Origin: Adhaeribacter aquaticus DSM 16391
GTDB taxonomy: Bacteria; Bacteroidota; Bacteroidia; Cytophagales; Hymenobacteraceae
Length of the DNA stretch: 64,000 nt
Reading direction: 5' to 3'
Assembly (NCBI RefSeq): GCF_000473365.1
Contig: NZ_KI421517.1
Span: 62,001 to 126,000, forward strand
Shown: positions 4,157 to 51,522 of the stretch, in pieces
Position numbering within the stretch: the first letter of the stretch is position 1
How the letters are laid out: every line of letters starts with the position of its first letter
Made by a program: the position numbers and the translations under genes
The notes under the pieces: generated by a model
Seen by the model: only the letters and a program-made list of their open reading frames with translations
What the model was told of the DNA's origin: nothing
Databases searched by the model: none

Positions 4157-4425
4157 GATTGATAAAGCTATATAAGTGCTACTAAATTTTTTTAATAGAA
4201 GAGCTTATTTTAATTTTTCAGAAATGAAAAATAACAAAAGAATGGAGATTATGTCTGGTACGAAAATAAGGTATAGCAAAATTTCCTGTACGCATAGAAG
4301 TAAAAAATATAGGGAGTAAAGTTTTAAATCCAGCTTATTACTTATTACAGCTTACAAAAAAGCATTATAAAAATTAACATAATTATAAGAAAAAGGAGGT
4401 AAAATCTCCGGTAAGTAAGATCCAG

Positions 4426-4433
4426 TAGTTTTG
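4426..4433 (+). promoter_or_regulatory. Possible -7 box (TAGTTTTG) upstream of the alcohol dehydrogenase
   Basis: The sequence fits the Bacteroidota -7 consensus TAnnTTTG and lies 17 bases before the ATG at 4451, within the 294-base gap after GH127. There is no convincing TTTG box at the expected upstream distance. A GGAGG string at 4395-4399 is too far from the start codon to be a ribosome site. Confidence 0.3.
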
Positions 4434-4450
4434 TTTTTAAGATTTTTTCT

Positions 4451-5467: not shown

Positions 5468-5517
5468 GACAAAGGATTATTAACCAGAATAGCCTACTAA
5501 GCTTAACTTATTATGAA

Positions 5518-7989: not shown

Positions 7990-7998
7990 CATATTAAA

Positions 7999-33100: not shown

Positions 33101-33788
33101 TGTTCCGGATGCCAACCGATTCCAGGTAGAAGGTGTGCTGCAAAAAAATGGCAATATGCTTTTGCTGGTAGATGGTAAAGAAGTAGCCAAAGGAAAAGCA
33201 CCAGGAGCTTTTCAAACTGCCTTACCGGCCAATTTAGTAGTTGGCTTTGATGGCAAATCAGGAGAGAAATTTGGCCCTTATGCCGATAACTTTAACCTGA
33301 CCGGCAATATCGCGAATGGTTTTGTTGAGGTTAGCAATGGGTCTACCAAAGTGGGCCAGGTTGCCGAAAAAGCCGATGTTACTGTTACAATTAAGGTAGT
33401 GAAAGACCAGATGCAGTTTGATAAGAAAACTTTCTCGGTTAAAGCCGGACAAGTAGTAGAATTAATTCTGGAGAATACCGATTTCATGCTGCATAACTGG
33501 GTACTTACCCAAATGGGGGCCATGAATAAAGTAGGCGCGGCGGCCGACAAAATGGCCAGCGATCCGAAAGGTTCTGAGAAAAATTATATACCGAAAATGC
33601 CGGAAGTTTTAGCTGCTACCGAACTGGTAAACCCAGAAACCAGAACAGTAATTCGTTTTAAAGCACCCGAAAAAACAGGTGACTATCCGTATGTATGTAC
33701 GTTCCCGGGACACTGGCGAATCATGAACGGAACAATGAAAGTAGAGAAAGCAATTCTACCCGAAAAGTCAGCCAGTATTACGCGGTAA
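30159..33788 (+). CDS. ThuA - PVC-type dehydrogenase - HEAT - cupredoxin fusion lipoprotein
   Basis: This 1209-residue protein starts with a lipoprotein signal (LLANGCTKL). A ThuA-like glutamine-amidotransferase-fold domain (about 44-240) comes first. A PVC-type membrane-bound dehydrogenase propeller (about 290-690) has calcium-like loops DTNGDGKAD and DTNGDDKAD. HEAT-like helices (about 700-900) and a LamG-like sandwich (about 920-1080) follow. The C terminus (about 1085-1200) is a blue-copper domain with H1112, C1180, H1185 and M1189; the string CTFPGHWRIM has azurin spacing. No CxxCH heme motif is present, so copper replaces the usual cytochrome c as electron acceptor. It probably oxidises a sugar outside the cytosol. 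Confidence 0.85.
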   Translation: MYMKKFASFGLIVIGLLANGCTKLSSSKTPDDTGSASGPRRIEVLFLGHESEHHNSNKYAPGLANALFSRGINITYTTNPTDLNSQNLKKYDGLVIYANHDKMEPAQDKALTEFVESGKGLIPIHSASFCFRNSPAYVKMVGGQFKSHKTGTFTTEIVNAKHPTMQGMAPFETWDETYVHSQLQPDNEVLMVRDEEGRKEPWTWTRTQGKGRVFYTAYGHDERTWNNPSFQQLVGNGILWAVGEKPNKLLAKYAPPALTYNDGHEIPNYEKRNPAPKFQNPLSTAQSQKLIQVPTDFEVELFAAEPDVVNPISMAWDERGRLWVIETVDYPNEVRDEDGIGDDRIKICEDTNGDGKADKFTIFADKLNIPTSLVFANGGVIISQAPVFLFLKDTNGDDKADVRETIITGWGKSDTHAGPSNLKYGLDNKIYGTVGYAAFNGKEGDRNIQFSQALYRFNKDGKSLEHLAKTSNNTWGLGFTENFDIFVSTANNTHSAFYYMPDKYTRRVLAPANQPIAQANAVVTNTSNTPAPAANPVVQGIKKIDGHYAMHTMTHNLRQVDVHGGFTAAAGHNFYTARNFPKEYWNRIAFVCEPTGRLVHQAILEPSGAGYGEKDGWNFFASSDDWVGPVHAEVGPDGAVWVADWYDFIIQHNPTPSPQNGGYQAQNGKGNAYVNPLRDRQRGRIYRVKYKGAKSSTPVKLDVTKPETLVAALQNDNMFWRTSAQRLIVENKITAVIPELIKIAANQSVDEIGINAPAVHALWTLHGLGALDGNNAGALQVAMQALKHPAAGVRRNALQVLPKTQLVQEAILKANLLTDSDLNTRLISLLALAEMPTSAQTGEALAMASMVAENEKDPALAQALFVAVGRHQAGFKAAMTQHSHHQMAGNSGTLMARIMESLDRDVRVLDKWSTIPANQAPNVNGKEINIRAAIIKPRTGALSGVVAAQGNQENGYGIYVADEKINLLVKQKGKAYSIAAPVPDANRFQVEGVLQKNGNMLLLVDGKEVAKGKAPGAFQTALPANLVVGFDGKSGEKFGPYADNFNLTGNIANGFVEVSNGSTKVGQVAEKADVTVTIKVVKDQMQFDKKTFSVKAGQVVELILENTDFMLHNWVLTQMGAMNKVGAAADKMASDPKGSEKNYIPKMPEVLAATELVNPETRTVIRFKAPEKTGDYPYVCTFPGHWRIMNGTMKVEKAILPEKSASITR

Positions 33789-33909
33789 ACCTTAAGAAAT
33801 AATACCAAGAAAGCCCGGTGCAGGAGATACAATAAAAGTAGGCTCCTGTCCAGGCACTTAAGCAGTACCCTCTAATCAATAATTATTTAAAAGAAGCTGT
33901 ATTACTATT

Positions 33910-34815
33910 ATGCCTTTAGATATAACCTTTGGAGTAAGCACCTGGCTCTGGACTTCTCCATTCTCTACTGAATCCATTTCGTTGTTTCCCAAAATTAAAG
34001 CTATGGGCTACGACAAAGTAGAAATTGCCGTAGAAGATCCGGCTTTGATAGATACTAAAGTGGTAAAACGGGCTTTAGACGAAATCGGGCTGGGCGTGCT
34101 TGTTTGCGGGGCCTTTGGCCCTACCCGCGATTTAACCAGTGCGGACGAAACTTTAAGGCAAAATAGCTTAAACTATATAGAAGCCTGCCTGGATATTTGT
34201 GTAGAACTAGGTGCCCCTTTTTTTGCCGGACCTATGTATTCCGCAGTGGGAAAAGCCCGACAGGTATCGCCGGAGCAAAAACAAACAGAATGGCATTTAG
34301 CCGTTACTAACCTGCAAAAAGCCTGCGATATGGCTCAAGCCCGTAACCTTTATTTGGCACTGGAACCACTAAACCGGTTCGAATCGGACTTAGTTAATAC
34401 GGCCGAAGATGTAACCCGATTAGTAAAAGATATCAACCATCCAGCTGCTAAAATTATACTGGATGGATTCCACATGAACATTGAGGAACCGGATATAGAA
34501 GAAGCCATAATAACTGCTGGTAAAAATTTAATTCACTTGCAGGTTTCTGAAAATTACCGGGGCACACCTGGAACAGGCCAAACACGCTGGGACGCCTTTA
34601 AAAAGGGTTTAAAAGCCATTAATTACACCGGCACAGTTTCCATTGAAAGCTTTACCCCGGCTAATAAAGAACTGGCCGGTGCCGTATGTATCTGGAAGCC
34701 ATTGGCCTCAAGCCAGGATTCTTTTGCCGCCGAAGGCATTAAATTCCTAAAGAATTGGGCTGGAGAAAAAGACAAAAAGCCTGCTCCTGCCAGTGCTTCC
34801 TTTATCGAATTATAA
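33910..34815 (+). CDS. Sugar epimerase/isomerase, D-tagatose/D-psicose 3-epimerase-like
   Basis: This 301-residue TIM-barrel protein belongs to the xylose-isomerase-like family. Metal-binding residues are seen in LEPLNRFE, the hallmark LDGFHMNIEE, HLQVSENYRG and SIESF. The FHMNIEE motif is typical of D-tagatose/D-psicose 3-epimerases and related keto-sugar epimerases. It is cytosolic and 121 bases after the ThuA fusion gene, and it is followed at once by a Gfo/Idh/MocA gene. The trio suggests oxidation of a sugar followed by epimerisation and reduction. Confidence 0.85.
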   Translation: MPLDITFGVSTWLWTSPFSTESISLFPKIKAMGYDKVEIAVEDPALIDTKVVKRALDEIGLGVLVCGAFGPTRDLTSADETLRQNSLNYIEACLDICVELGAPFFAGPMYSAVGKARQVSPEQKQTEWHLAVTNLQKACDMAQARNLYLALEPLNRFESDLVNTAEDVTRLVKDINHPAAKIILDGFHMNIEEPDIEEAIITAGKNLIHLQVSENYRGTPGTGQTRWDAFKKGLKAINYTGTVSIESFTPANKELAGAVCIWKPLASSQDSFAAEGIKFLKNWAGEKDKKPAPASASFIEL

Positions 34816-34834
34816 CCACCAAATAATTACTTCC

Positions 34835-35983
34835 ATGAAAAAAGAGAAAATTAATATTGCCATTGTGGGCTTAGGATTTGGCGCGGAATTTATTCCTATT
34901 TATCAAAAACATCCTTTAGCCAACATGTATGCTATTTGCCAGCGCAACGAAGATAAATTAAATGAAATTGGTGCAGCTTTTGGTATCGCGAAGCGGTACA
35001 CCGATTACGATGCCCTTTTACAGGATCCGGAAGTAGATGCTGTTCATATTAATACGCCTATCCAGAACCATGCAGAACAATCTTTAAAAGCACTCTATGC
35101 CGGTAAACACGTAGCCTGTACCGTACCCATGGCTACTACTGTGGAGGAATGCCGACAAATTGTAGAAGCCGTGGAGAAAACCGGTAAAACCTACATGATG
35201 ATGGAAACGGTAATCTACAGTCGCGAATTTTTATTCGTGAAAGAAATGTACGAAAAGGGGGAGTTGGGCAAACTACAGTTTATCCGGGCTTCGCATCAGC
35301 AGGAAATGGCTGGTTGGCCAGGTTATTGGGAAGGGCTGCCACCAATGCACTATGCCACTCACTGCGTAGGACCAGTATTGGCTTTACCCAGAGCGCAGGC
35401 CGAATATGTTTCCTGCTTTGGCTCTGGCCGCATCGACGAAAACCTGATCCCGAAATACGGGTCGCCTTTTGCCATTGAAACCTGCCACATCAAATTAAAG
35501 GACTCGGATTTAGCGGCCGAAGTTACCCGGTCATTATTTAACACCGCGCGTCAGTACCGCGAAAGCTTTGATGTGTATGGTTCTAAAAAATCATTTGAAT
35601 GGACGGCCATTGAACACGAAGACCATGTCATTCATACCGGCGAAACGCCCTCCAAAGTACAGACGCCGGATTATGCACATTTACTACCAGAGGAAATCAG
35701 ATCTTTTACTACCCAAGGCGTTTACGATACTGACGATAATCAGCACTTATCTTTTATTCAAGGTTCCGGTCACGGCGGATCGCACCCACACCTGGTACAC
35801 GAATTTTTAACAGCCTTGGCCGAAAATCGGGAACCGTATCCAAATGCTCAACAATCGGCTAATATTACTTGTGTAGGAATTCTGGCGCATGAGTCAGCCA
35901 TGAAGGGTGGCGAACTAATTCGCTTACCGGAATTTACATTGGCTACCCTTCAAACAGAAGCTCAAACCTTGGTAACAGGCTAA
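34835..35983 (+). CDS. Gfo/Idh/MocA-family oxidoreductase
   Basis: I chose the ATG at 34835, which gives 382 residues starting MKKEKINIAIVGLGFGAEF. An upstream in-frame start at 34793 overlaps the epimerase gene and adds an unlikely leader. The N-terminal Rossmann motif is VGLGFG, and the family signature appears as HVACTVPMATTVEEC, with Val-Pro-Met where the usual EKP lysine motif would be. That departs from typical active sites, so the enzyme may be an unusual dehydrogenase. The end of the epimerase and this start are 19 bases apart, and a strong terminator follows. Confidence 0.85.
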   Translation: MKKEKINIAIVGLGFGAEFIPIYQKHPLANMYAICQRNEDKLNEIGAAFGIAKRYTDYDALLQDPEVDAVHINTPIQNHAEQSLKALYAGKHVACTVPMATTVEECRQIVEAVEKTGKTYMMMETVIYSREFLFVKEMYEKGELGKLQFIRASHQQEMAGWPGYWEGLPPMHYATHCVGPVLALPRAQAEYVSCFGSGRIDENLIPKYGSPFAIETCHIKLKDSDLAAEVTRSLFNTARQYRESFDVYGSKKSFEWTAIEHEDHVIHTGETPSKVQTPDYAHLLPEEIRSFTTQGVYDTDDNQHLSFIQGSGHGGSHPHLVHEFLTALAENREPYPNAQQSANITCVGILAHESAMKGGELIRLPEFTLATLQTEAQTLVTG

Positions 35984-39277: not shown

Positions 39278-41092
39278 ATGATTACAACACCAGGACCAGT
39301 TGGTAAAACAAAAAAGAAATACAAAATCAAGCTCCGAAAACCTTCCTTCCTGAGCCGGTTCTTGTTTGGTAGCTTGTTAATCTGTCTGGCCTTTATTGGT
39401 TTTATTCAATGTAAAAGCACCAGAAACATTTCTGCTTTACCTGCCGGCGACTCCGACAACGGCGGCTTATTTCTGCCCGGTGATTTTGAGGCCATAGCCG
39501 TAGTAGATAGTTTGAAAGGAGCAGCCCGACACCTGACCGTAAATAACAATGGGGACATTTATGTAAAACTACGGTTCCCGGATTCAGAAGGAGGCAATGC
39601 TGCTTTACGCGATACCAATGGGGATGGGAAAGCTGACATCATCCAGCATTTTGACGACTACCTGGATAAAAGCAGTTACGGCACAGAAATGCGCATTCAT
39701 AACGGATATTTATGGTTTAGCTCCGTAACTAAAATTTACCGGCAAAAGCTTACCGGCGATTTGGTGCCTACTTCTGAAATGGAGTTGATGCTGACCGATA
39801 CGCAGCCGCTTCGCCAGCACGATACAAAACCATTAGCCTTTGATAAAGAGGGAAATTTTTATACTGCTTTTGGTGCGCCTTCGGATGCTTGCCAGGTAAA
39901 CGACCGGGCACCAGGCTCTCCGGGGCAAGATCCTTGTCCTATTTTGGAATTGCGTGGCAGCATCTGGCGATTTGATGCCAATAAAAAGAACCAGTTTCAG
40001 CAAGACGGACATAAATTTGCTACCGGCTTGCGCAGCGTAGTAGGATTAACCTGGAACAATCAGGACAATAACTTATATGCCGTAGTACATGGCCGCGATT
40101 ACCTGCACAATACCTGGCCCGACTATTTTAGCGCCTGGCAGGGAGCTGTATTACCTTCAGAAGTTTTTGTAAAACTGAAAGATGGCGCGGATGCCGGGTG
40201 GCCGTACCATTATTACGACCAGATACAAAAAAAATATTTCCTGAACCCAGAGTACGGCGGCGATGGCAAAAAGCAAGGCGATGTAAGTAAATTGGTAGAA
40301 CCTACCGTTGGTTTTCCGGGCCATTTTGCCCCTAACGATATTATATTTTATACCGGTAATCAGTTTCCGGAACGGTATAAAAACGGAGCTTTTGTTGCCT
40401 TCCACGGCTCCACCAGCAGTGCTCCTTTTCCGCAATCCGGATACTTTGTAGGTTTTATACCTTTTAAAAATGGCGCTCCCGCTGGTCCCTGGGAAGTGTT
40501 TGCCGATGGCTTTGCCGGCGTAGATACGGTGGTAAACACCAGCAATGCGAAGTATCGGCCAATGGGCTTAGCCATGGGACCTGATGGGTCCTTGTATGTG
40601 TCCGATTCCGAGAAAGGTAAAATCTGGCGTATCATGTACAAAGGTGAAAAGAGCAGATTTGGGACATCGCAATTAGTAGCCATGGAAAAAAGGAAGAATG
40701 AAGCACCCAATATTAAAACGCCTAATCAGGAAGATGAGGCTCGCATTGAAAAAAGAAAGCTAGCGGCTGGAGCACAACTTTTCAACAACAATTGCGGGGC
40801 CTGCCACCAAACCAACGGCCAGGGCAACGACCGGTTTCCGCCATTAAATGAATCGGAGTGGGTAAACGGCGATAAAACCAGGTTAATAAGTATAGTATTG
40901 AAAGGCCTAGAAGGTGAAATAAAAGTAAAAGGCAAATCGTATAACAATGTAATGCCTAAACTAGATCATATTAATAATGAGAATATTGCCAAAATTTTAA
41001 CTTACGTGAGACAAAACTTTGGCAACAAGGCTAATGCCATTACAGCTAACGAAGTAGATGTTGTTAGAAGAAGTTTAAATCAGCCAAAGTAG
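39278..41092 (+). CDS. Sorbosone-dehydrogenase-like propeller fused to cytochrome c
   Basis: This 604-residue exported protein has a basic leader and one hydrophobic segment (FLFGSLLICLAFIGFIQC), either a membrane anchor or an atypical lipoprotein signal. A PQQ/L-sorbosone-dehydrogenase-type beta-propeller (about 55-460) includes DTNGDGKAD and the signature GLAMGPDGSLYVSD. A C-terminal cytochrome c domain (about 495-590) has heme ligands C506-C509-H510 (CGACHQ) and a likely axial methionine in NVMPKL. It should oxidise a sugar or aldose in the periplasm and pass electrons through its own heme. It opens the exported cluster that continues with RidA. Confidence 0.87.
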   Translation: MITTPGPVGKTKKKYKIKLRKPSFLSRFLFGSLLICLAFIGFIQCKSTRNISALPAGDSDNGGLFLPGDFEAIAVVDSLKGAARHLTVNNNGDIYVKLRFPDSEGGNAALRDTNGDGKADIIQHFDDYLDKSSYGTEMRIHNGYLWFSSVTKIYRQKLTGDLVPTSEMELMLTDTQPLRQHDTKPLAFDKEGNFYTAFGAPSDACQVNDRAPGSPGQDPCPILELRGSIWRFDANKKNQFQQDGHKFATGLRSVVGLTWNNQDNNLYAVVHGRDYLHNTWPDYFSAWQGAVLPSEVFVKLKDGADAGWPYHYYDQIQKKYFLNPEYGGDGKKQGDVSKLVEPTVGFPGHFAPNDIIFYTGNQFPERYKNGAFVAFHGSTSSAPFPQSGYFVGFIPFKNGAPAGPWEVFADGFAGVDTVVNTSNAKYRPMGLAMGPDGSLYVSDSEKGKIWRIMYKGEKSRFGTSQLVAMEKRKNEAPNIKTPNQEDEARIEKRKLAAGAQLFNNNCGACHQTNGQGNDRFPPLNESEWVNGDKTRLISIVLKGLEGEIKVKGKSYNNVMPKLDHINNENIAKILTYVRQNFGNKANAITANEVDVVRRSLNQPK

Positions 41093-41446
41093 ACTCCACT
41101 AAAGAGAAATATCTGCAGGACTTGCAAAACTTTTGGATTTTAAAGCGCTGCAGGTATTTTTATTTAAAACCTGTTTCTCCAATTCCACCATATTACCCTA
41201 TGTGTTGCTCCTGCTGTAACTTACCGGCAACCCAAATTTTAACCTACAAAAAACCCGGTAATTGTGGTAAAATAGTATAAAAAGGATGCTTAACGCCGGG
41301 ATTAAAAATAAGCATTAGATTATGAAAATAAATTGAGGTATTTAGTTATCTTGATTGATAAAAGGTTACAAAGGCATTACATCTCTAAGAAGAAGCTTAA
41401 AAGAGGAATTGTACAGATCTAAAATAAATTATTTAAAACTGCTACC
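41093..41446. other. 354-base gap before ridA
   Basis: AT-rich with no gene seen. GCAGGACTTGC and GCGCTGCAGG near 41113-41156 could pair loosely, but no convincing terminator is present. Confidence 0.3.
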
Positions 41447-41911
41447 ATGGAAAAAACACAAAGACGATCTATTTTAAAAAGAATATTTGCCTCTGTTGCT
41501 GGCATAACGGGTTTAGGTTTTGCTGCCAAAGCCAAAGGCCTGGCCAGTGAAGAAAAAGAAGCTTTCAACGTCACTACCTTCCAAAATACACCTTTATTCT
41601 CTGGATCTACCCGACATGGCAACCTGATTTTTGTTGCCGGTAAAGGGGCCCATGTTGAACCTTTCGAAATTAAAGCCCACACCGAAATTGTGCTGAAAGA
41701 ACTGGAAGCAGAATTAAAAAAAGCCGGTTCTTCCATGGAAAAAGTTTTGAAAGTTAACGTGTACCTGGCAGACTTAAACGATTACAAAGCCATGAACGAA
41801 GTTTATAAAGGCCGTTTCGGGGCTAAACCTCCGGTTCGGACTACGGTGGCTACTTACGGCGGGGTGCCAGGCAATTCCTTAGTAGAAATGGACTGCATTG
41901 CCTATGTTTAA
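41447..41911 (+). CDS. ridA: Tat-exported RidA-family enamine/imine deaminase
   Basis: This 154-residue protein is a RidA/YjgF homologue with an added N-terminal Tat signal (RRSILKRIFAS, then a hydrophobic stretch to AAKAKG). In the RidA domain (about 40-154) the ligand-binding arginine in PPVRTTVA and the conserved glutamate in LVEMDCIA are both present, so activity is plausible. RidA hydrolyses reactive enamines and imines released by PLP enzymes and is normally cytosolic. A Tat-exported PLP enzyme is encoded 5 kb downstream at 46764, which suggests both work outside the cytosol. Confidence 0.88.
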   Translation: MEKTQRRSILKRIFASVAGITGLGFAAKAKGLASEEKEAFNVTTFQNTPLFSGSTRHGNLIFVAGKGAHVEPFEIKAHTEIVLKELEAELKKAGSSMEKVLKVNVYLADLNDYKAMNEVYKGRFGAKPPVRTTVATYGGVPGNSLVEMDCIAYV

Positions 41912-42593
41912 ATAGCCTTCTTCACCTAATGAGTACAATTCTTCTTTTTTATTAATTTATTTATATACGCTACGCAGAAGAAATTATTATAAAGGTTATC
42001 TTCTATTCCTGATTTAAGAGGTTTAGCTGATAGTTCCCTTTATAGATTAGACTGTAAGTATAGGTAACATGGCTACCGACGTAACGGTAAAACAATTGCT
42101 TAACTATACCCCTACCCGGCATATTGCCTGAGGTAAAACAAAATAAAAACTATCAGTCAGAAAATACAAATACGGCTGCGTTACGGTAATCCTTCTATTG
42201 AAGCAGGTGGAGGTAATTCAGAAAATTATAATTTTAATGTAGCTGTGCGGATGAAATCCGGCCAAGAGAAAATGGTGGCAAAACACCTTAAAAGGACCAT
42301 TGAAGGCAATTATCTGAAAACGCAGCCTGCGTTAATAAAATTAAAAGTATTTCAAACAGCTTCTTTTTCTGCGAGTCTTCTTTTTTAAAAGGCTGCTAAT
42401 TGAAAGCTCAAACGAATACTTAAGTTTCTTTTTGAATACATAAATAAAAGGGTAATCCAAACTAATAATTTATCCATTAAGGACGGTATTACCCAAAACG
42501 CATTTTCTTATTTCCGCCGGATAAAATCTTTCCCGGCAGGAAGCAACTAAATATTCACCAGGTAATTTTTAATCATTAAAAACTTAAACGATT
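41912..42593. other. 680-base gap with a possible gene fragment
   Basis: An open stretch at 42137-42388 (+) has protein-like text (IRLRYGNPSIEAGGG and FNVAVRMKSGQEKMVAKHLK) but no normal start codon before an internal ATG. I do not recognise it and treat it as a possible remnant. The downstream part should hold the promoter of the amidohydrolase gene. Confidence 0.3.
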
Positions 42594-43892
42594 ATGCGTA
42601 GAATATTCTCTTTATTATTCCTCCTCATTTGTTTAGGGGTTATAACCGTTCAGGGCCAAACCTATAGCATTGTCATCAAGGGCGGGCATGTTATTGATCC
42701 TAAAAATAATCTAAATGGCTTGATGGATGTGGCCATTACGGATAATAAAATAGCTGCCGTAGCCAAAAACATCGATGAAAAACTAGGCAAACAAGTAGTA
42801 AATGCCAAAGGCTTATATGTTATGCCGGGTTTACTGGATATCCATAGCCATAACTTTTGGGGAACCAATATGGACCAGACCTACATGAATGGCCCCAATG
42901 CCTTACCTCCCGATGGCTTTACCTTCCGCAATGGCGTAACCACAGTTGTTGATGCTGGCAGTCCTGGCTGGCGTACATTCCCGGATTATAAAAAACAAAC
43001 CATCGATGCCTCTAAAACCCGTGTGTTGGCCTTCCTGAATATTTCGGGAGAAGGTATGCGTGGCGGTAACTACGAGCAAAACACCAATGATATGGATGCT
43101 AAACTATCCGCTAATGTAGCCAGACAGTATCGTAATCATATTGTTGGTTTTAAAGTAGCTCACTTCGAAGGTCCGGAGTGGACACCGGTGGATCGGGCAG
43201 TAGAAGCCGGCAAATTAGCCGGTGGTCTTCCGGTGATGATTGATTTTGGAGGCAGCAACCCTCCTCTTTCCATTGAAGAGTTATTTTTTAAGCACCTACG
43301 CCCCGGTGATATATTTACCCATGCCTACGGTCAGTTAGCTAGCCGCGAAGCCATCGTAGATACAAAAACTAATAAAGTAAAACCCTTTGTTTGGGAAGCG
43401 CAAAAACGCGGAATTGTTTTTGATGTGGGATACGGGGGAATCAGCTTTGCCTTCTCTCAGGCCTTACCAGCCGTTAAACAAGGCTTTTACCCCACCACCA
43501 TCAGCACCGATATCCACACGGGTAGTATGAATGATGCCATGAAAGATATGCTGACAACCATGTCTAAATTTTTAGCCATGGGCATGGATTTACAAAATGT
43601 TATCAAAGCCAGTACCTGGGTGCCCGCGCAGGTAATTAAACATGAAGAGCTTGGACATTTATCGGTAGGTGCCGTAGCTGATGTGGCTATATTGGGCATG
43701 CGCAAAGGGAACTTTGGTTTATTTGATTACACTGGTTATAGAATTGAAACTGATAAAAAGCTGGAATGTGAAATGACCCTTCGGGAAGGCAAAGTTGTGT
43801 ACAACCTGAACGGCATTATTTCGCCAATGGTACTGCCAAGAACCGCTTCTGGCTCTGGTTCTAATAACCAGGCAGCTGCGCACACGCACTAA
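42594..43892 (+). CDS. Exported EF_0837-type amidohydrolase/deacetylase
   Basis: This 432-residue metallohydrolase carries a signal peptide ending near residue 22 (TVQGQ). The metal-binding HxH is H84-H86 (DIHSHNF). A likely carbamylated lysine lies in GFKVAH, further ligands lie in FTHAYGQ, and the catalytic aspartate lies in STDIHTG. It resembles the amidohydrolase family typified by EF_0837/Atu3266, which I recall as often encoded beside a SelA-related PLP enzyme, as here. Members remove acyl groups from small N- or O-acylated compounds. Export is unusual for the family. A terminator follows. Confidence 0.85.
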   Translation: MRRIFSLLFLLICLGVITVQGQTYSIVIKGGHVIDPKNNLNGLMDVAITDNKIAAVAKNIDEKLGKQVVNAKGLYVMPGLLDIHSHNFWGTNMDQTYMNGPNALPPDGFTFRNGVTTVVDAGSPGWRTFPDYKKQTIDASKTRVLAFLNISGEGMRGGNYEQNTNDMDAKLSANVARQYRNHIVGFKVAHFEGPEWTPVDRAVEAGKLAGGLPVMIDFGGSNPPLSIEELFFKHLRPGDIFTHAYGQLASREAIVDTKTNKVKPFVWEAQKRGIVFDVGYGGISFAFSQALPAVKQGFYPTTISTDIHTGSMNDAMKDMLTTMSKFLAMGMDLQNVIKASTWVPAQVIKHEELGHLSVGAVADVAILGMRKGNFGLFDYTGYRIETDKKLECEMTLREGKVVYNLNGIISPMVLPRTASGSGSNNQAAAHTH

Positions 43893-43941
43893 AAGCAATC
43901 ATGCTTTATACAGCTCAAAAATTTTTGTTTAATACCATTAA

Positions 43942-43997
43942 AAAAAGCCTATGCCAACACTAGAAAAGAATCAGGGAGGATCAGGCATTGGCTTTTT
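43942..43997 (+). terminator. Intrinsic terminator after the amidohydrolase gene
   Basis: AAAAAGCCTATGCC pairs with GGCATTGGCTTTTT (one mismatch), with a loop of about 28 bases. The stem closes on A and T tracts, so it may work in both directions. Confidence 0.65.
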
Positions 43998-44420
43998 ACT
44001 TTATAATTTACAAGTCGTACGAGGCGGTAGATATAGCATTTTGCTACCTTGATAACCAGAACTTAACTACTAGTAATAGTGCAGGTATACCTGAACTTGG
44101 TTATTGTTTAAAAATAAATAACCACAGTTTAGCCTGCTTTTTTTCAACAATTTTTTTTACCTCTTTCACCCGGCGACGAACCAGTTAATGTTTCCTTTTT
44201 AGCAACAAGGGCTTAAAACTCTTTACCTGTACAAAAGAAATGAGCCCATTTTATAAGCCAGGTAAGATTTTAATATTTTACTTTATAGACATTGTATAAC
44301 ACTATAAGTGAATTGCTTTAACCATATTTTGTAACAAATAAAAAGAGGGGAATTTTTACGAAGGTGAGCAGAAATTTTAGTAACTTTTAATTCGCAACCA
44401 CCTACACCAATTGTTTTATT
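43998..44420. other. Gap before the PQQ dehydrogenase gene
   Basis: A short frame at 43988-44188 overlaps the terminator and is not credible. Nothing else is recognised, but the promoter of the following gene must lie here. Confidence 0.3.
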
Positions 44421-46661
44421 ATGGGTAACACCACCGCCTTTATTTACAGCTTCCTGAAAAAAAAATACAGGTGGTTTATTCCTTCTTTGGCTGTAATTAC
44501 CTGTGCTGGTTGTCATTTTTTTGTTTCCTCTAAAGAAGTAATTACGGATACCGATCGAACCTGGAGTATTTATAAAGCAGATGCCGCCAGTTCCAGTTAT
44601 TCCAAACTGAAACAGATAAATTTAAAAAATGTAAATCAACTTACGGTGGCTTGGTCCTTCCCTTTTCAGGATGCTCCTGAGGGTAGCCGGGGCGCACGAA
44701 GCGAATGCAACCCTATTATCATAGATGGAGTGCTTTATGCCACTTCGGCCCGGCACCGGGTTTATGCTCTAAATGCCAGTACCGGCGATCAAATCTGGAC
44801 TTTCGATCCGTTTAATGGTGCCCAGGGCGGTGGTGTAAATCGGGGTGTTACTTATTGGGAAAAAGGTGAGGATAAACGTATTTTATTTACCGCCGGTGAT
44901 AACCTGTTTGCAGTGGATGCCCGCACCGGTAAGCTAATTCTTTCTTTCGGAAAAGAAGGCAAAATTAGCCTGAACGAGGGCATGCGCGATCCGGCCGAAT
45001 CTATTTCGGTAATTCCTACTTCTCCCGGAATTATCTATGAAGACTATATTATTATAGGCAGTGAGGTTTCGGAATTGTACGGCGCCCAGCCGGGGTATAT
45101 CCGGGCTTACAACGTAAAAACTGGTCAATTGGAATGGACCTTCCACACCGTTCCACTGCCGGGCGAACCCGGTTATGAGACCTGGCCTAAAGATGCCTGG
45201 AAATATGCCGGAGGCGTTAACGATTGGGCTGGCATGAGCTTAGACCAGCAACGCGGCCTGGTTTTCCTCGCCTTAGGCTCCCCCTCTTACGACTTTTATG
45301 GCGCTGACCGGAAAGGCCAAAACTTGTATGGAAATTGCATTGTGGCACTGGATGCTAAAACCGGAAAACCAAAATGGCATTTTCAAACCATTCACCACGA
45401 TTTGTGGGACTACGATTTACCAGCCCCTCCTAATCTGGTAACTGTGGAGCGCGATGGGAAAAAGATTGATGCGGTGGCTCAAACTTCTAAAGTGGGATTT
45501 TTATATGTCTTAAATCGCGAAACAGGAGAATCGCTATTCCCGATTGAAGAACGGAAAGTACCCGCCTCTTTAGTGCCTGGCGAAGAGGCCTGGCCTACCC
45601 AGCCTTTCCCGCTTAAGCCAAAGCCCTACGCCCGGCAACTTATAACCAAGGATGACCTGAACCATTATTCGGATGCTTCTTATGATACCATTCTGAAAAG
45701 ATTTAACTCTTTCCGCTACGAAGGTTTGTTTACCCCACCCGATACCCGGGGCACGTTAATGGTACCTGGCAGCCGGGGCGGAGCGGAATGGGGTGGCGCC
45801 GCTTTTGATCCGGCCACTGGGATAATTTACGTGCGTTCAAATGATTCCCCTGAAATAGATATTCTGAAAAAATTAGAACAGGATCCCGAATCGGGCAGCC
45901 AAACGGTTTTCGACAAAGGGAAAGCCTTTTACACAAACTATTGCCAGAGTTGCCACGGGGCAGATAAAAATGGGGATGAACCCAATTACCCTTCCCTGGT
46001 AGGTTTAAATTCTAAATTAAAAAAAGAAGATGCCTTAAATAAAATAAAAAAAGGAGGCGGTAAAATGCCTGCTTTTGCCAGTATTTTAAAAGGTCAGGAA
46101 GAAGCCATTATCTCTTTTTTGTACGAAAAGCCACCCGCTAAAATCTCTAAATCTGATCAGGCCTTACTGGATGAAATAAAGGTTAACCAGGCTGCCCAGA
46201 AGAAAGCTGTCGCCGAAGATCCGGCTACCGGCGATCGATACCTGAATATAACAGCTTATGGGTATTTTACTGATCCACAAGGCCGTCCGGCCATAAAACC
46301 TCCCTGGGGCACCTTAAATGCCATAAATGTAAGTACCGGCGAATATGCCTGGACCATTCCATTGGGAAATAACCCGGATCTTCAACAAAAAGGAACTCCT
46401 CCTACGGGCCTGGAGGGCATGCCCGGACCTATAGCAACTGCCGGTGGTTTAATTTTTATAGCCGGTACCCGCGATAATAAATTGCATGCTTATGATAAGA
46501 AAACGGGTAAGCTGGTATGGGAAACTAATTTACCCGCCATTGGTTCGGCTACACCCTGTACCTATATGAGCAAGGGCAAGCAATATGTAGCCATTTCAGT
46601 AGCCGGAGACAAAAATAATCCGGCAGGTTATATTATGGCTTTTGCCTTACCCGACAACTAA
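44421..46661 (+). CDS. PQQ-dependent dehydrogenase with inserted cytochrome c
   Basis: This 746-residue exported quinoprotein has an N-terminal hydrophobic leader ending ITCAGC, a possible lipoprotein site. An eight-bladed PQQ propeller (about 50-490 and 590-746) shows repeats such as ALNASTGDQIWTF and ALDAKTGKPKWHF. A cytochrome c module is inserted at about 495-580 with C508-C511-H512 (CQSCHG) and a likely axial methionine in KMPAFA. It resembles membrane-bound glucose/polyol dehydrogenases. It would oxidise sugars in the periplasm, with intramolecular electron transfer to heme. It lies between the amidohydrolase and the SelA-like gene, 102 bases before the latter. Confidence 0.9.
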   Translation: MGNTTAFIYSFLKKKYRWFIPSLAVITCAGCHFFVSSKEVITDTDRTWSIYKADAASSSYSKLKQINLKNVNQLTVAWSFPFQDAPEGSRGARSECNPIIIDGVLYATSARHRVYALNASTGDQIWTFDPFNGAQGGGVNRGVTYWEKGEDKRILFTAGDNLFAVDARTGKLILSFGKEGKISLNEGMRDPAESISVIPTSPGIIYEDYIIIGSEVSELYGAQPGYIRAYNVKTGQLEWTFHTVPLPGEPGYETWPKDAWKYAGGVNDWAGMSLDQQRGLVFLALGSPSYDFYGADRKGQNLYGNCIVALDAKTGKPKWHFQTIHHDLWDYDLPAPPNLVTVERDGKKIDAVAQTSKVGFLYVLNRETGESLFPIEERKVPASLVPGEEAWPTQPFPLKPKPYARQLITKDDLNHYSDASYDTILKRFNSFRYEGLFTPPDTRGTLMVPGSRGGAEWGGAAFDPATGIIYVRSNDSPEIDILKKLEQDPESGSQTVFDKGKAFYTNYCQSCHGADKNGDEPNYPSLVGLNSKLKKEDALNKIKKGGGKMPAFASILKGQEEAIISFLYEKPPAKISKSDQALLDEIKVNQAAQKKAVAEDPATGDRYLNITAYGYFTDPQGRPAIKPPWGTLNAINVSTGEYAWTIPLGNNPDLQQKGTPPTGLEGMPGPIATAGGLIFIAGTRDNKLHAYDKKTGKLVWETNLPAIGSATPCTYMSKGKQYVAISVAGDKNNPAGYIMAFALPDN

Positions 46662-46763
46662 AAGGCATTATGCTTCTGGAAGAATAAATAACTTTTCTGA
46701 TTCCATTAATACTATAAATACCTGACCAAACTAAAAAAGAATACTCTATTCAAACTTAAGCAT

Positions 46764-48443
46764 ATGAAACGCAGAGATGTTATAAAAGGCTTATCTATTC
46801 TTCCAATTGGAGGAGTAGTTGGTGCCAGCCAGGCAGCCACGGCCGCTCCGGCCAATGATTTCGATTACCCCTCGTTTCTGGGAACTACTGAAACATTACA
46901 TACCATGACCGGTCCCCTTAAAGCCGGACCAGAAGTATACCAATCTATCGGAGTTGAACCCATAATAAACTGCCGTGGCACTTTTACCATTATTGGGGCC
47001 TCTGTTGAATTGCCTGAAGTTCGGGCTGCCATGGAATATGCGTGTCGTTACTTTGTACAGCTGGATGAACTGGCTTTAGGGGTAGGTAAACGATTATCCG
47101 AGATTACGGGTGCTGAATGGGGCATGGTATCTTCGGGGTGTGCGGCCGGCATGAAACATGTAACCGCCGCTTGTGTAACGGGAGGCAATCCAGAAAAACT
47201 TATCCGCATTCCGGACTTATCCGGCTTCGAAAAAACTGAAGTTATCATACCAAGATCTTCCCGAAATGTTTACGACCATGCCCTGCGTAATATCGGCGTA
47301 AAAATAATTACCGTTGATTCTATTGAAGAACTGGAAAAGGCAATCAGCTCCCGAACCGCCATGATTTATTTGATGTCCCATGATAATCCAGGTCCTGACC
47401 CCATGTCGGTGGAGAATATAGCTAAAATTGCCAAACCTAAAAATGTACCTATTCTGGTAGATGCGGCCGCGGAAATTTTAACCATCCCTAACGTGCATTT
47501 GCAAAAAGGTGCTACTGTAGTGGCCTACAGTGGCGGAAAAGCTATCCGGGGCCCGCAATGTGCCGGTTTATTATTGGGCGATAAAAATTTATTAATGTCG
47601 GCGTGGCAGGCTAGTGCCCCTCACCACGGGCCCGGGCGCGATAACAAAGTAGGACGGGAAGAAGTAATGGGCATGCTGGCCGCTGTTGAAACCTGGGTAA
47701 AACGAGATCATCAGTCCGAATACAAAACCTGGTTAAGTTACCTGGATACAATTAAAAAACGAGTAACCAAAATAAATGGGGTTCAAACTACTTTACGTGA
47801 GCCAACCGGGTTAGGTAATCGTACTCCAGTGCTGACTGTTTCCTGGGATCCGGCCAAATTAAATATTATTGGGCAGGAAGTGGCCAACGAACTGGCCCAA
47901 ACCAAACCTCGAATCGCCATGAGCGTGGGAGGCCCTAGAAGTGGAGCCCCGGATCAAAATTTTACCTCCGTTTCTATTAGTTCCTGGATGATGCAACCCG
48001 GCAACGACAAAGTTGTGGCCGACCGGCTTTACGAAGTATTGGCCCGTAAAAGAAGTCCCCGGGCAACTACTATGAAAGCACCAGTTACGGATATTACTGG
48101 TCGTTGGGATGCCACCATTGAGTTTTTTAATAGTACAAGCAGCCACACTTTAAATATTGAAAAACAAGATGGCAATTGGCTGCAAGGTTCGCATAAAGGC
48201 GATTTTGCGGTTAGAGATATGGCAGGCTCCATTGAAGGTGACCAAATAAAATTCCGGAGCACCTATCGGGCTACCGCCGATGGCATCACATTTACGTTTT
48301 CAGGTAAAGTTTACGGCGATACGATGACCGGAGATATTCATATGGGCGAATATTTAACCGCTAAATTTACAGCTAAAAAATACACCTACCCTACCATGCA
48401 CGAACCCATTATGGTACCGGTTGGCCCTCCATTATCCAGTTAA
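46764..48443 (+). CDS. Tat-exported SelA/DgaE-like PLP enzyme with lipocalin-like tail
   Basis: This 559-residue protein starts with a Tat signal (MKRRDVIKGLSIL, then AAATAAPA-like sequence). The fold-type I PLP domain (about 50-440) has the phosphate/aldimine region LVDAAAEIL and the Schiff-base lysine K259 in AYSGGKAIRGPQ. It is closest to SelA-related proteins and DgaE-type D-glucosaminate-6-phosphate ammonia-lyases. A C-terminal beta-rich lipocalin-like domain (about 447-545) binds an unknown ligand. PLP enzymes outside the cytosol are rare. With the exported RidA and PQQ dehydrogenase, it may deaminate an oxidised amino sugar. Confidence 0.85.
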   Translation: MKRRDVIKGLSILPIGGVVGASQAATAAPANDFDYPSFLGTTETLHTMTGPLKAGPEVYQSIGVEPIINCRGTFTIIGASVELPEVRAAMEYACRYFVQLDELALGVGKRLSEITGAEWGMVSSGCAAGMKHVTAACVTGGNPEKLIRIPDLSGFEKTEVIIPRSSRNVYDHALRNIGVKIITVDSIEELEKAISSRTAMIYLMSHDNPGPDPMSVENIAKIAKPKNVPILVDAAAEILTIPNVHLQKGATVVAYSGGKAIRGPQCAGLLLGDKNLLMSAWQASAPHHGPGRDNKVGREEVMGMLAAVETWVKRDHQSEYKTWLSYLDTIKKRVTKINGVQTTLREPTGLGNRTPVLTVSWDPAKLNIIGQEVANELAQTKPRIAMSVGGPRSGAPDQNFTSVSISSWMMQPGNDKVVADRLYEVLARKRSPRATTMKAPVTDITGRWDATIEFFNSTSSHTLNIEKQDGNWLQGSHKGDFAVRDMAGSIEGDQIKFRSTYRATADGITFTFSGKVYGDTMTGDIHMGEYLTAKFTAKKYTYPTMHEPIMVPVGPPLSS

Positions 48444-48595
48444 TTAAGAGTACAAATATTTACCTCGTTTTACTTTAACAAAACTATAGCCCTATGCTAA
48501 GGCAGCTTAGGGTAGGGCAATTAAATAGTTTGAACTCAGGGATAGAAAAAAGTATCCTTTATACAAGCCACCCTTAAATAAGCCACTGGTTCAAC

Positions 48596-49330
48596 ATGTT
48601 TTATAAGCCATTTTATGCTGCAATTTTGATATGGTTATTAAGTGCTAATATCGTCTATGGCCAGAAAAACGATTCATCACAATTGGTGATCAAAAAAACC
48701 ACGGACTTTACAGTAAGTGGCGAGGGCAAGGCTGCTAACTGGGCAACTACCAGGTGGGTTACCTTACCCGTTCAGGAATCAGCCGGCGGAACCATGAAAA
48801 CCAAAGCAAAAATACTTTATTCCGAAACGGGTATCTATTTCTTGTTTAACTGCGAAGACCAGAAAATTACTGCCACCTACGAAGAAGATTTTAAACCGCT
48901 ATACCGGGAAGATGTGGTAGAAGTTTTTCTATGGCCTGATACTACTATACCGGCATATTTAGAGTATGAGTTATCGCCTTTAAATTATGAACTGGTGCTA
49001 ATGATCCTGAATAAAAATGGCAAGTTTAGCGGTTGGCGCCCCAGTGGCTATGCCGGGAAACGCCAAGTGCAACATGCCACCAGTGTGCAGGGTGGTGAAA
49101 AAAAGAGCCAGGCCACCATTAAAAGCTGGAAAGGGGAAATATTCATTCCTTTTGATCTGATGCAGCCCTTAACCATGGGAGCTCCCAAATCAGGAAGCCA
49201 ATGGCGGGCGAACTTTTACCGGATTGATTACGATAATGGCTACACCACCGGATCCTGGCAAAAAACCACGCCAAATAAATCTGCCAATTTCCATGAATAC
49301 AATAAGTTCGGCACATTCGTATTTGAGTAA
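48596..49330 (+). CDS. Exported CBM9-like sugar-binding domain protein
   Basis: This 244-residue protein has a signal peptide to about residue 22 (NIVYGQ). The rest is a family 9 carbohydrate-binding-module-like beta-sandwich. It contains the conserved pattern of strands around IYFLFNCED and EDVVEVFLWPD, the calcium-site-like and aromatic segments, and WRANFYRIDY near the end. CBM9-like domains bind sugar reducing ends and often accompany oxidative sugar enzymes. It follows the SelA-like gene by 152 bases and is the last exported gene of the cluster. Catalysis is not expected. Confidence 0.75.
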   Translation: MFYKPFYAAILIWLLSANIVYGQKNDSSQLVIKKTTDFTVSGEGKAANWATTRWVTLPVQESAGGTMKTKAKILYSETGIYFLFNCEDQKITATYEEDFKPLYREDVVEVFLWPDTTIPAYLEYELSPLNYELVLMILNKNGKFSGWRPSGYAGKRQVQHATSVQGGEKKSQATIKSWKGEIFIPFDLMQPLTMGAPKSGSQWRANFYRIDYDNGYTTGSWQKTTPNKSANFHEYNKFGTFVFE

Positions 49331-49455: not shown

Positions 49456-49617
49456 ATGGCTCGATTAAATTTAATAGAAGAGACGAGATACGAGAAGTTA
49501 CCGGTGCGGGTATATCCGGATCAGCATATAGCTTCTAAACAGGTAGCTGGTCGTATAGCCCAGCTCATCCACAAAAAGCAGACCCAGGGGCAGCCAGCTG
49601 TTTTAGGTTTATTATGA
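49456..49617 (+). pseudogene. nagB: Truncated glucosamine-6-phosphate deaminase (nagB) N terminus
   Basis: The first 53 codons read MARLNLIEETRYEKLPVRVY and continue to AVLGLL before a TGA. This matches the start of Bacteroidota NagB proteins, which continue GLATG... for a total of more than 250 residues. Nothing matching the rest follows. The break falls where the conserved ATG motif of the sugar-phosphate isomerase fold should begin. It is therefore a remnant, left beside a GH18 gene where a chitin or GlcNAc pathway may once have been. Confidence 0.8.
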
Positions 49618-49860
49618 AGCCATTGAAGCTTTTGTCAAATGAAAGTTTTAAGAAGTATTCAAGACAGAAAGCAGATTAATCTTACCATGAATATTAGTCA
49701 CCAATAAATTTCATCTAATAATTATTTATATAATATTATAATTTATTGAATATATTAAAGCCGACAATTAGGGGGAATTAATTTGGTTAAACCACCAATA
49801 TGTTCCTTTACATTCTGCCTGGAATTTAAAAACTTTATATCTAACCTAAAGCATACAAAA

Positions 49861-50982
49861 ATGGTAAAGAACCTATTGCTCTTGATCTTTTGCTTTTTTA
49901 GTATTTCTGCTGGATATAGTCAGGCCAAAATCTCCGGACCCAAAAAGTATAAGGTTACAGGTTATGTGGGTGGTTACCGGGGATTGGTTCGGACAGAAGA
50001 TATAGATGCCGAAAAACTTACTCATATTATTTATGCGTTTGTTAATTGTAAGGACAGCATGGCAGTATTAACCAACCTGTCCACCGATTCTACTAATTTC
50101 CGCAAGCTTAACCTGCTGAAACAGAAGAATCCTGATTTAAAAATATTGATATCAGTAGGTGGCTGGAGCTGGAGCGATTTTTTTTCGGACGCTGCCCTTA
50201 CTCCTACTTCCCGAACTTTGTTTGCTAAAACCAGCGTGGATATTGTTCGGCAATACCAATTGGATGGTGTGGATATTGATTGGGAATATCCTGGTATGCC
50301 CGGAGAAGAAGGCAATGTGGTACGTCCGGAAGACAAGCAAAACTATACCCTGCTGCTGCAAGCCATCCGGGCCGAACTGAATAAACTACAACAGGAAACG
50401 GGCAAAAAATATGAGTTAACGGCGGCTGTGGGAGGCTCGCAATCTTTTATCGACCATACTGAAATGGATAAGGTGGCACAAATCTTAGATTACGTTTACC
50501 TGATGACTTATGATTATTCGGGCAGAAACAAAACCGTTAGTCACCATACCAACTTGTTTCCCACTAAAAAAGAAGGCTCATCTGCACATCAATCAGTTAA
50601 GAACTTTATGGCCGCCGGCGTGCCCAAAGAAAAATTGGGTTTAGGTGCAGCTTTCTACGGCAAAGGATTTGAAGCAGCTTCCACAGAAAATTACGGCTTG
50701 CACCAGCCACAAGTAAAAACAGCTAAAGGCGGCGGCTACACCGAAATAAAAGATAACCTGATCGGCCAGCAAGGCTACAAACGCTACTGGGACAAAAAAG
50801 CCAAAGCTCCTTATCTTTTCAATGACAACACCAAAGTATTTATTACTTACGAGGATGAAAAATCTATTAAAGCAAAGTGCCGGTATATTCGCAAAAATAA
50901 CCTGGCCGGGATATTCTTCTGGGAGTATTTTAATGACCCAAAAGAGTATTTAATAAACGCTATTCACCAGCATCTACCTTAA
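49861..50982 (+). CDS. GH18 chitinase-like glycoside hydrolase
   Basis: I chose the ATG at 49861, which gives 373 residues and a clean signal peptide ending near residue 20 (SAGYSQ). The upstream in-frame start at 49783 is a TTG that would bury the signal. The GH18 catalytic motif is intact (LDGVDIDWEYPG, general acid E142). YLMTYDYSG and AAFYGKGF are the other family signatures, and FFWEYFNDP closes the barrel. It hydrolyses chitin or GlcNAc-linked glycans outside the cell. Its neighbour upstream is a truncated nagB. Confidence 0.93.
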   Translation: MVKNLLLLIFCFFSISAGYSQAKISGPKKYKVTGYVGGYRGLVRTEDIDAEKLTHIIYAFVNCKDSMAVLTNLSTDSTNFRKLNLLKQKNPDLKILISVGGWSWSDFFSDAALTPTSRTLFAKTSVDIVRQYQLDGVDIDWEYPGMPGEEGNVVRPEDKQNYTLLLQAIRAELNKLQQETGKKYELTAAVGGSQSFIDHTEMDKVAQILDYVYLMTYDYSGRNKTVSHHTNLFPTKKEGSSAHQSVKNFMAAGVPKEKLGLGAAFYGKGFEAASTENYGLHQPQVKTAKGGGYTEIKDNLIGQQGYKRYWDKKAKAPYLFNDNTKVFITYEDEKSIKAKCRYIRKNNLAGIFFWEYFNDPKEYLINAIHQHLP

Positions 50983-51183: not shown

Positions 51184-51522
51184 ATGAAAAAAAGCATGCT
51201 CAAATGTATTGGAGTATTATGGGCGGGCTGTATGGCAACTTGAGCGCAAAAATCAGGTGGTAAAGAAATAATTTACGCTGGTACTTTTTCCAATAAAGGC
51301 AGCAAAGGCCTCTACATGTTAAATTTAGATCAGGCTACCGGAAAACTAACCGAATTAGAAACAGTTGCAGACGGCAAAAGCCCTGATTATTTAGAGATTC
51401 CCCCAACTGGGAAAAACCTTTATGCTGTTTACGACGAAGGTGCCACCCCTTCCCCAGAAAGGGAAGGTGCTGTAATGGCTTATCAAATTAATCCCAAAAC
51501 TGTACTTTACCCGCCAAGCTAA
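51184..51522 (+). pseudogene. Broken 6-phosphogluconolactonase/lactonase-family gene
   Basis: The frame starts MKKSMLKCIGVLWAGCMAT, then hits TGA at 51241-51243 within the signal peptide just before AQKSGG. Reading on in the same frame gives IIYAGTFSNKGSKGLYML and LEIPPTGKNLYAVYDEG, the first blades of a lactonase-type propeller (family normally about 350-400 residues). It then runs out of homology at NPKTVLYPPS. One nonsense mutation plus a 3' truncation make it a clear pseudogene. It may once have hydrolysed sugar lactones, which sugar dehydrogenases would produce. Confidence 0.75.

Follow-up and report, generated by a model that had tools for sequence, protein, structure and literature searches.

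A conserved set of genes for apparently exported RidA, SelA-like and amidohydrolase proteins in Adhaeribacter aquaticus, with a possible role in amino-sugar acid degradation

We analyzed a stretch of 64,000 nucleotides from Adhaeribacter aquaticus DSM 16391 (contig NZ_KI421517.1, positions 62,001 to 126,000; hereafter the window), which holds six plus-strand open reading frames (ORFs), all open, between positions 39278 and 49330. They encode a quinoprotein domain fused to cytochrome c, a RidA-family protein, an amidohydrolase, a pyrroloquinoline quinone (PQQ) dehydrogenase-type protein, a SelA/DgaE-related pyridoxal 5'-phosphate (PLP) protein and a CBM9-like protein (Table 1). Our main new observation, made at the level of sequence, is a branch of apparently exported SelA-like proteins that mostly lacks the proton-donor histidine of DgaE and that seems to be tied to RidA. 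The RidA/SelA-like/amidohydrolase module appears to be a real, conserved and exported gene set, for which we infer a substrate and a mechanism below. Several features had no place in the original prediction for this locus, namely the C-terminal beta-barrel of the SelA-like protein, the gene relics in the gaps, the nagB fragment and the GH18 gene immediately downstream.

Table 1. Features of the six-gene row and of its gaps and downstream flank, in window coordinates
Feature	Position	Strand	Evidence
GSDH-type quinoprotein domain fused to cytochrome c	39278..41092	+	Pfam PF07995 31.9 bits, PF00034 44.8 bits; exported or anchored-looking
RidA-family protein	41447..41911	+	PF01042 70.4 bits; Tat-type signal QRRSILKR
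Short-form SelA-like gene relic (C-terminal ~55 codons)	42137..42301	+	tblastn 45% identity over 55 residues to the SelA of L137, E 2e-9
PRK09237-type amidohydrolase/deacetylase, exported-looking	42594..43892	+	NF006689 455.8 bits, cut-off 371
PQQ dehydrogenase-type propeller with cytochrome c domain	44421..46661	+	PF01011 657 bits; TIGR03074 465 bits, under its cut-off of 832.65
Long-form SelA/DgaE-related fold-type I PLP protein	46764..48443	+	Signal KRRDVIKG; PLP lysine K259
C-terminal eight-stranded beta-barrel of long-form SelA	48099..48380	+	Residues ~446-539; AlphaFold2 pLDDT 89.2
CBM9-like protein, exported-looking	48596..49330	+	PF06452 35.6 bits
nagB-PIG-L type fragment, 53 codons (glucosamine-6-phosphate deaminase-like)	49456..49617	+	92% identity over 52 residues to a genomic paralogue
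GH18 protein (chitinase type), exported-looking	49783..50982	+	PF00704 276 bits
Seven-bladed beta-propeller lactonase relic, N-terminal part only	51244..51522	+	PF10282 55.7 bits, profile 2-72 of 344; tblastn

The six proteins all begin with a hydrophobic stretch and look exported, as the original prediction had read them, and the twin-arginine translocation (Tat) motifs that it had assigned to RidA and to the SelA-like protein (QRRSILKR and MKRRDVIKG) are indeed present. An alignment of 14 SelA-like proteins has both arginines in every member. A Tat motif test of our own making was passed by 99 of 116 SelA-like and 27 of 34 RidA proteins with a complete start, versus 75 of 785 background ORFs; the same script found Tat-like or hydrophobic N-termini in 82/88 amidohydrolases, 16/18 RraA-type aldolases, 15/16 SMP-30 proteins and 11/11 members of a second Rid family. 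TatC is present in the genome. That these N-termini are not functional export signals and that the enzymes stay cytoplasmic is, in our judgment, highly improbable: in its favor, a bare hydrophobicity test is also passed by 317 of the 785 background ORFs, whereas the conservation of the twin arginines, the enrichment in the Tat motif test and the recurrence of such N-termini in the amidohydrolase, RraA and SMP-30 proteins argue against a cytoplasmic location.

The AlphaFold2 model of the SelA-like protein (pLDDT 83.8, with residues 1-48 below 50) predicts a SelA-related fold-type I PLP fold. Foldseek returned DgaE (7lc0) as the first match with a TMt of 0.85, and also Cap15 (8t7j_A, 0.87) and SelA (3w1h, 0.56-0.62). 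The proposal that K259 is the PLP lysine is supported, since K259 aligns with lysine 213 of DgaE chain 7lc0_A and this lysine is kept in 122 of 122 SelA-like proteins; the catalytic lysine is named Lys-217 in the available text of the DgaE study (PMC9529869), and we take the two numbers to denote one residue. The arginines of the DgaE phosphate site are mostly not conserved, Arg-301, Arg-332 and Arg-346 being arginine in 14, 2 and 1 of the 122 proteins, respectively, with valine at position 301 in the window protein. The last 120 residues are modeled as an eight-stranded barrel, for which there was no Pfam match and no Foldseek match at E<=0.001; its weak Foldseek matches were to the avidin-like and lipocalin-like CRBP, wilavidin and PvdP (best E 1.4e-3).

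The fold also bears on a quite unlikely alternative, namely that the SelA-like protein is an oxygen-dependent PLP oxidase or decarboxylase of the Cap15 or PvdN kind, which acts on an extracytoplasmic 3-hydroxy-2-amino acid and leaves an imine for RidA to clear. Structurally, Cap15 is as close as DgaE, with a slightly weaker Foldseek E-value, its substrate is a beta-hydroxy-alpha-amino acid, and PvdN offers a Tat-exported fold-type I PLP enzyme in the available text of its reports (PMC7497351, PMC6085387). In sequence the protein is nearer DgaE (118.9 versus 88 bits), and the RraA, SBF, KDG-kinase-like and aldonate-carrier-like neighbors of its relatives (KDG, 2-keto-3-deoxygluconate) fit a keto-deoxy acid product instead.

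The proton donor of DgaE is His-163. According to the available text of the DgaE study, the H163A variant keeps its activity, but its enamine is set free and protonation is no longer stereospecific; the study points to RidA as a known remover of such enamines (PMC9529869). A histidine at this position occurs in 2 of the 122 SelA-like proteins, those being the L078 protein and a Rhizobium plasmid protein without a signal. Because DgaE without His-163 releases its enamine, a SelA-like branch mostly devoid of this residue would give RidA a task.

RidA proteins are scavengers of reactive enamines inside cells. The window RidA belongs to PF01042 (cut-off 27.3 bits) and falls below the cut-off of the narrower TIGR00004 model (65.6 versus 106.25). 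Its R131 lies within a PVR motif that retains the arginine in 28 of 29 RidA proteins, and we take it to be the catalytic arginine, Arg-105 of RidA. The amidohydrolase exceeds the cut-off of NF006689 and remains under that of TIGR03583, the EF_0837 model (229.9 versus 432.15 bits). Its HxH, K, H and D motif positions, H84, H86, K187, H243 and D306, are presumably metal ligands, and its relatives in the PDB are 8je0, 2ogj and 2ics.

The linkage between exported-type RidA genes and SelA-like genes exceeds what chance would give. In a sample of 395 Bacteroidota genomes, searched at thresholds of our own choosing (SelA-like, E<=1e-20; RidA, E<=1e-25, which excludes ordinary RidA proteins), the same 8 genomes hold both, and none of the 11 RidA matches is more than 5.4 kb away from a SelA-like match. 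Of the 14 SelA-like matches, 13 belong to a cluster with RidA, and the remaining one is close to the end of a contig (G203:C53). In a family-level sample, SelA-like matches occurred in 5 of 120 genomes, all of the window's genus, of which three further listed genomes had no such match. A scan of GTDB confirmed 549 SelA-like relatives; the tallies that follow concern the best 80, are thus biased chiefly toward long-form SelA, and include many loci on short contigs. These 80 loci contain the amidohydrolase in 40 cases, the GSDH-cytochrome in 18, RidA in 17 (22 when the second Rid family is counted), RraA in 9, SMP-30 in 8, SBF in 7 and the PQQ type in 2. With phyla assigned from record titles, 41/51 loci of Bacteroidota and 5/22 of Acidobacteriota have one or more of the amidohydrolase, Rid and GSDH genes. 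The predicted cooccurrence of RidA and SelA therefore stands in one direction only: RidA is always found by SelA in the 395 genomes but is absent from most of the 80 mainly long-form SelA loci, so that RidA predicts SelA far better than the reverse.

The neighborhoods of the relatives enlarge this picture. Four genomes of the same genus (G397, G402, G406 and G420) have SusC (cut by the end of the stretch), SusD, RidA, the amidohydrolase, a GSDH-like gene (Pfam-checked in L133 only), a probable extracytoplasmic function sigma gene and long-form SelA in one row. Relatives' loci additionally hold an exported-looking RraA-like aldolase, an SMP-30/gluconolactonase, an SBF carrier and a second Rid protein, CBM9-like relatives are present in the SelA/RidA loci L018, L023 and L136, and GH18 also follows RidA-SelA in the genus relative L137 and thus adjoins two loci of the genus. 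SelA, RidA and amidohydrolase genes that all encode export-type N-termini were found together in Bacteroidota loci, in the Acidobacteriota locus L094, in Granulicella and in Streptomyces niveus, so similar exported partnerships appear in three or more phyla of bacteria. On a Granulicella plasmid, the genes for RraA, SelA, RidA, SelA, amidohydrolase, lactonase and a BBE flavoprotein stand in a single row, and we read the first six N-termini as export-type. In S. niveus, the N-termini of the trio are exported-looking and that of RraA is not. There, a kinase lies ~2.3 kb from the trio on the other strand (best model KDG/KDGal kinase, 205.8 bits, below the cut-off of 400), and a major facilitator superfamily (MFS) carrier is near, also on the other strand (best model D-galactonate transporter, 281.3 bits, below the cut-off of 395). 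In the haloarchaeon Natrononativus, a signal-less SelA-like gene is one gene away from an annotated D-aminoacylase, with an annotated GH20 further along. Two side observations concern other SelA-like loci. In L144 (Sinorhizobium meliloti pMl1, 2228-8318), the gene for a C-terminally extended SelA-like protein stands beside those for a phosphoenolpyruvate mutase, a cytidylyltransferase and a CDP-alcohol phosphatidyltransferase, which suggests a phosphonate or lipid role for another SelA-like branch. In the Bacteroidota loci L047, L049, L050, L059 and L095, one protein family is encoded directly 3' of long-form SelA; its L049 member, the only one scanned, is of the DUF362/FlgD type and has twin arginines at its start.

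At the window locus the intergenic gaps are large, and the SelA relic, the lactonase relic and the nagB fragment indicate that the present row is the reduced form of a larger one. The 682-bp gap between the RidA and amidohydrolase genes contains what remains of a short-form SelA gene, its C-terminal end, which is not evident in the same gap of four genus relatives; a DNA alignment with these relatives showed no conserved element in common with the window. A palindromic stretch (GTTCTTTTTGTCTTGA.ACAAAAAGAACC) is common to the gaps of three genus relatives (L133 2983-3697, L134 15472-16100 and L136 3705-4426) and missing from the window. The nagB fragment had no PDB or Pfam match of its own and was identified by its intact paralogue elsewhere in the genome, a 644-amino-acid ORF that matches NF002557 (1062.6 bits, cut-off 384), of which it is probably a recent partial duplication. 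We do not claim a second amidohydrolase relic upstream of 39278, where there is a weak match (E 0.008) with a 35-nucleotide partial repeat. Promoter and terminator scans of the locus yielded no more than scans of shuffled sequences. Purifying selection acts on the four genes tested: against same-genus genomes, nonsynonymous divergence (dN) was 0.10-0.16 and synonymous divergence (dS) at least 1.5 in comparisons with three relatives for each of RidA, the amidohydrolase and SelA and with one relative for CBM9, the RidA values being 0.10-0.13 and at least 1.6.

The original prediction had let the quinoproteins take the place of a missing aldolase. This part did not hold, and we ruled it out given the RraA-type aldolases in relatives' loci and in this genome, which has seven RraA matches in all, five of them strong and located elsewhere; the aldolase is therefore displaced, not replaced. 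Membership of the quinoproteins in the pathway fared better for one than for the other, as the GSDH-cytochrome, for which we propose a role in sugar C1 oxidation, is the commoner neighbor in the GTDB loci and the PQQ dehydrogenase a rare one. No PqqE match over the cut-off was found in the window genome, nor in any of 14 controls, and no PqqC match, with all the controls being silent too. It is conceivable, though we think it rather unlikely, that the six genes are leftover neighbors in a decaying carbohydrate locus, in which only RidA, SelA and the amidohydrolase form a unit and the quinoproteins act on other sugars. The relics, the nagB fragment, the large gaps and the rarity of the PQQ enzyme (2/80) speak for this possibility; the recurrence of the GSDH-cytochrome (18/80) and the purifying selection on RidA, the amidohydrolase, SelA and CBM9, a set that includes neither quinoprotein gene, speak against it.

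Four of the five strong RraA copies, all exported-looking, are encoded alongside about ten enolase-superfamily-like proteins of the Tat type (L138 3027-19900 and L139 214-18309; G000:C1:2066000-2105900), in a stretch where ten ORFs share near-identical twin-arginine N-termini and one other ORF is also of the Tat type. Two of the enolase-superfamily proteins were scanned, and both were nearest to galactonate/gluconate dehydratases, below the cut-off. The stretch further holds SBF, a SnoaL/DUF4440-type gene, SusCD, an FAA hydrolase and two aldehyde-dehydrogenase-like ORFs (one scanned), and it is apparently another extracytoplasmic sugar-acid locus. RraA and SBF are common to the loci of aldonate dehydratases and of SelA-type lyases, which suggests that the products of both are of one type, 2-keto-3-deoxy acids. 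Two further observations concern sugar oxidation in this genome. A second PQQ dehydrogenase gene lies near those of an RraA aldolase and a cupin protein (L140 9452-14152). Upstream of the six-gene row, window positions 30159-35983 encode a 1209-amino-acid ThuA-DUF7133-cupredoxin protein, then a xylose-isomerase-like TIM barrel and then a Gfo/Idh/MocA oxidoreductase, a further cluster of the sugar-oxidation type.

From the genes, the signals called by motif, the linkage, the residue pattern and the purifying selection on four genes, all of which were computed, we infer the location, the substrate, every reaction and the action of RidA on the enamine. The amino-sugar-acid direction that had been foreseen for the exported RidA/SelA/amidohydrolase module is supported, and we hold with moderate confidence that the locus is an extracytoplasmic module for the degradation of N-acylated 2-amino-2-deoxy-aldonic acids, with N-acetyl-D-glucosaminate derived from sugars of the chitin type as the most likely substrate. 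An exported sugar oxidase would oxidize C1 and a lactonase would open the lactone, the candidate oxidases being the GSDH-cytochrome, here also the PQQ enzyme, and in Granulicella the BBE flavoprotein. The metal-dependent amidohydrolase would then take off the acetyl group, converting N-acetylglucosaminate to glucosaminate, and the Tat-exported SelA-like enzyme would eliminate the 3-hydroxyl group of the resulting 2-amino acid, its product leaving as a free enamine, the DgaE proton-donor histidine being apparently absent. Tat-exported RidA would hydrolyze the enamine/imine to KDG and ammonia, and an exported RraA-type aldolase, encoded in the relatives' loci and elsewhere in this genome, would cleave KDG to pyruvate and glyceraldehyde; alternatively, an SBF or MFS carrier would import the keto acid.

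The same exported PLP/RidA chemistry might serve another substrate, such as galactosaminate, mannosaminate, some other 2-amino-2-deoxy acid or free D-3-hydroxy amino acids, with the SelA and amidohydrolase paralogues of some loci as specialists for different epimers. We regard this as unlikely, although it has several points in its favor: a single locus can have as many as three SelA-like and six amidohydrolase matches, the proposed carboxylate-binding arginine of DgaE is not conserved, and OngC of Pseudoalteromonas prydzensis, a PLP deaminase, deaminates D-serine and D-threonine too according to the available text of its report (PMC9537276). The GH18 gene, a polysaccharide deacetylase and the nagB fragment point instead to N-acetylglucosamine-type sugars, and the linkage of lactonases and sugar oxidases likewise speaks against another substrate.

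Several observations weigh against the degradation of N-acetylglucosaminate by an enamine-releasing SelA-like enzyme and RidA. The SelA-like protein scores far under the cut-offs of the curated DgaE models (NF047797, 140.6 versus 600 bits; TIGR01437, 156.4 versus 385.3 bits), and in place of Arg-226, the proposed carboxylate ligand of DgaE, it has an aspartate (D273), with arginine in 41 of the 122 SelA-like proteins. The alignment of the His-163 loop depends on the tool, as phmmer places H206 and D207 of the window protein on His-162 and His-163 whereas MAFFT places D207 and N208 there, and some histidine occurs in this loop in 14 of the 122 proteins, the window protein (H206) included. The signal-less Rhizobium relative keeps both histidines and yet has a Rid-family neighbor, by its N-terminus nearer the second Rid type, so that loss of His-163 alone does not explain the linkage to Rid proteins. 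RidA is found in 17 of the 80 GTDB loci, and two long-form SelA proteins of Chloroflexota (L081 and L105) lack a signal and have neither RidA nor an amidohydrolase in the stretches around them. The window locus itself is partly decayed, and the short-form SelA now lost from it may have been the partner of its RidA. Finally, the window genome has no LPMO_10 match, which speaks against a supply of oxidized chitin from a lytic polysaccharide monooxygenase.

More tentatively than for the locus itself, we suggest that in several phyla, including a monoderm, a Tat-exported PLP ammonia-lyase without an internal proton donor releases a PLP-poisoning enamine outside the cytoplasm, and that a coevolved Tat-exported RidA finishes the reaction. 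If so, export would spare phosphorylation and would keep the toxic enamine from PLP enzymes in the cytosol; the role of RidA would go beyond damage control to that of a genuine pathway enzyme outside the cytoplasm, which would also explain why the RidA protein OngD is essential. The residue pattern would translate into a prediction from sequence, namely that absence of the DgaE proton-donor histidine should be accompanied by enamine release. Bacteroidota, Acidobacteriota and at least one Streptomyces would also join the oxidative users of amino sugars, with different deacetylase and PLP enzymes.

Our literature search found no report of an exported RidA or of an exported SelA/DgaE-type protein, and the available portions of PMC4433059 and PMC12017989 yielded nothing on export. 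The features that we did not find in the literature searched are the extracytoplasmic place, these families of PLP enzyme and deacetylase, and the exported RidA. Among the systems compared, described here as far as the available text of the cited papers goes, PvdN shows that a fold-type I PLP enzyme can be exported by Tat but functions in pyoverdine maturation with a different chemistry (PMC6085387, PMC7497351). Cap15 (8t7j) shares the SelA-like fold and the kind of substrate but is an oxygen-dependent monooxygenase-decarboxylase of antibiotic biosynthesis. The chitinase clusters of Natrarchaeobius haloarchaea bring together chitinase, glucose dehydrogenase, a DgaE-like protein and RutC, a Rid-family name, and a conversion of glucosamine to glucosaminate was proposed; unlike the present module, they are archaeal, a phosphorylated route was proposed by the authors and RutC was read as a repressor (PMC12343721). 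With the DgaE/DgaF pathway for D-glucosaminate-6-phosphate in Salmonella (PMC9529869, PDB 7lc0), our system has in common a SelA-related PLP enzyme, its fold, the PLP lysine and the proposed beta-elimination. It differs in being exported-looking, in an expected unphosphorylated substrate, in the poor conservation of His-163 and the phosphate arginines, in its RidA partner, in an RraA-type enzyme in place of the DgaF aldolase and in the extra C-terminal barrel.

The proposed functional parallel is the Ong cluster of P. prydzensis (OngB, OngC, OngD and KdgK), which uses a deacetylase and a PLP deaminase, both regarded as cytoplasmic, to convert N-acetylglucosaminate to KDG, and in which OngD is essential for growth, its role being called unknown in the available text (PMC9537276). 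Since Ong already turns N-acetylglucosaminate into KDG, the chemistry proposed here is known. In both cases a deacetylase, a PLP deaminase and RidA are clustered, the sequence N-acetylglucosaminate to glucosaminate to KDG is proposed, and TonB-type uptake genes are present, in our system in the relatives' loci. The enzymes differ, OngB being nearest to D-aminoacylases and OngC of fold type III, in contrast to a PRK09237-type amidohydrolase and a SelA/DgaE-related protein of fold type I; the Ong enzymes are held to be cytoplasmic, whereas ours carry Tat- or Sec-type signals, and there is no kinase at the window locus. The different PLP fold type and the export-type N-termini leave the proposed functional likeness unaffected, and our best reading is that the module represents an extracytoplasmic counterpart of the cytoplasmic Ong route, in which enzymes of different families would carry out deacetylation and the PLP step.

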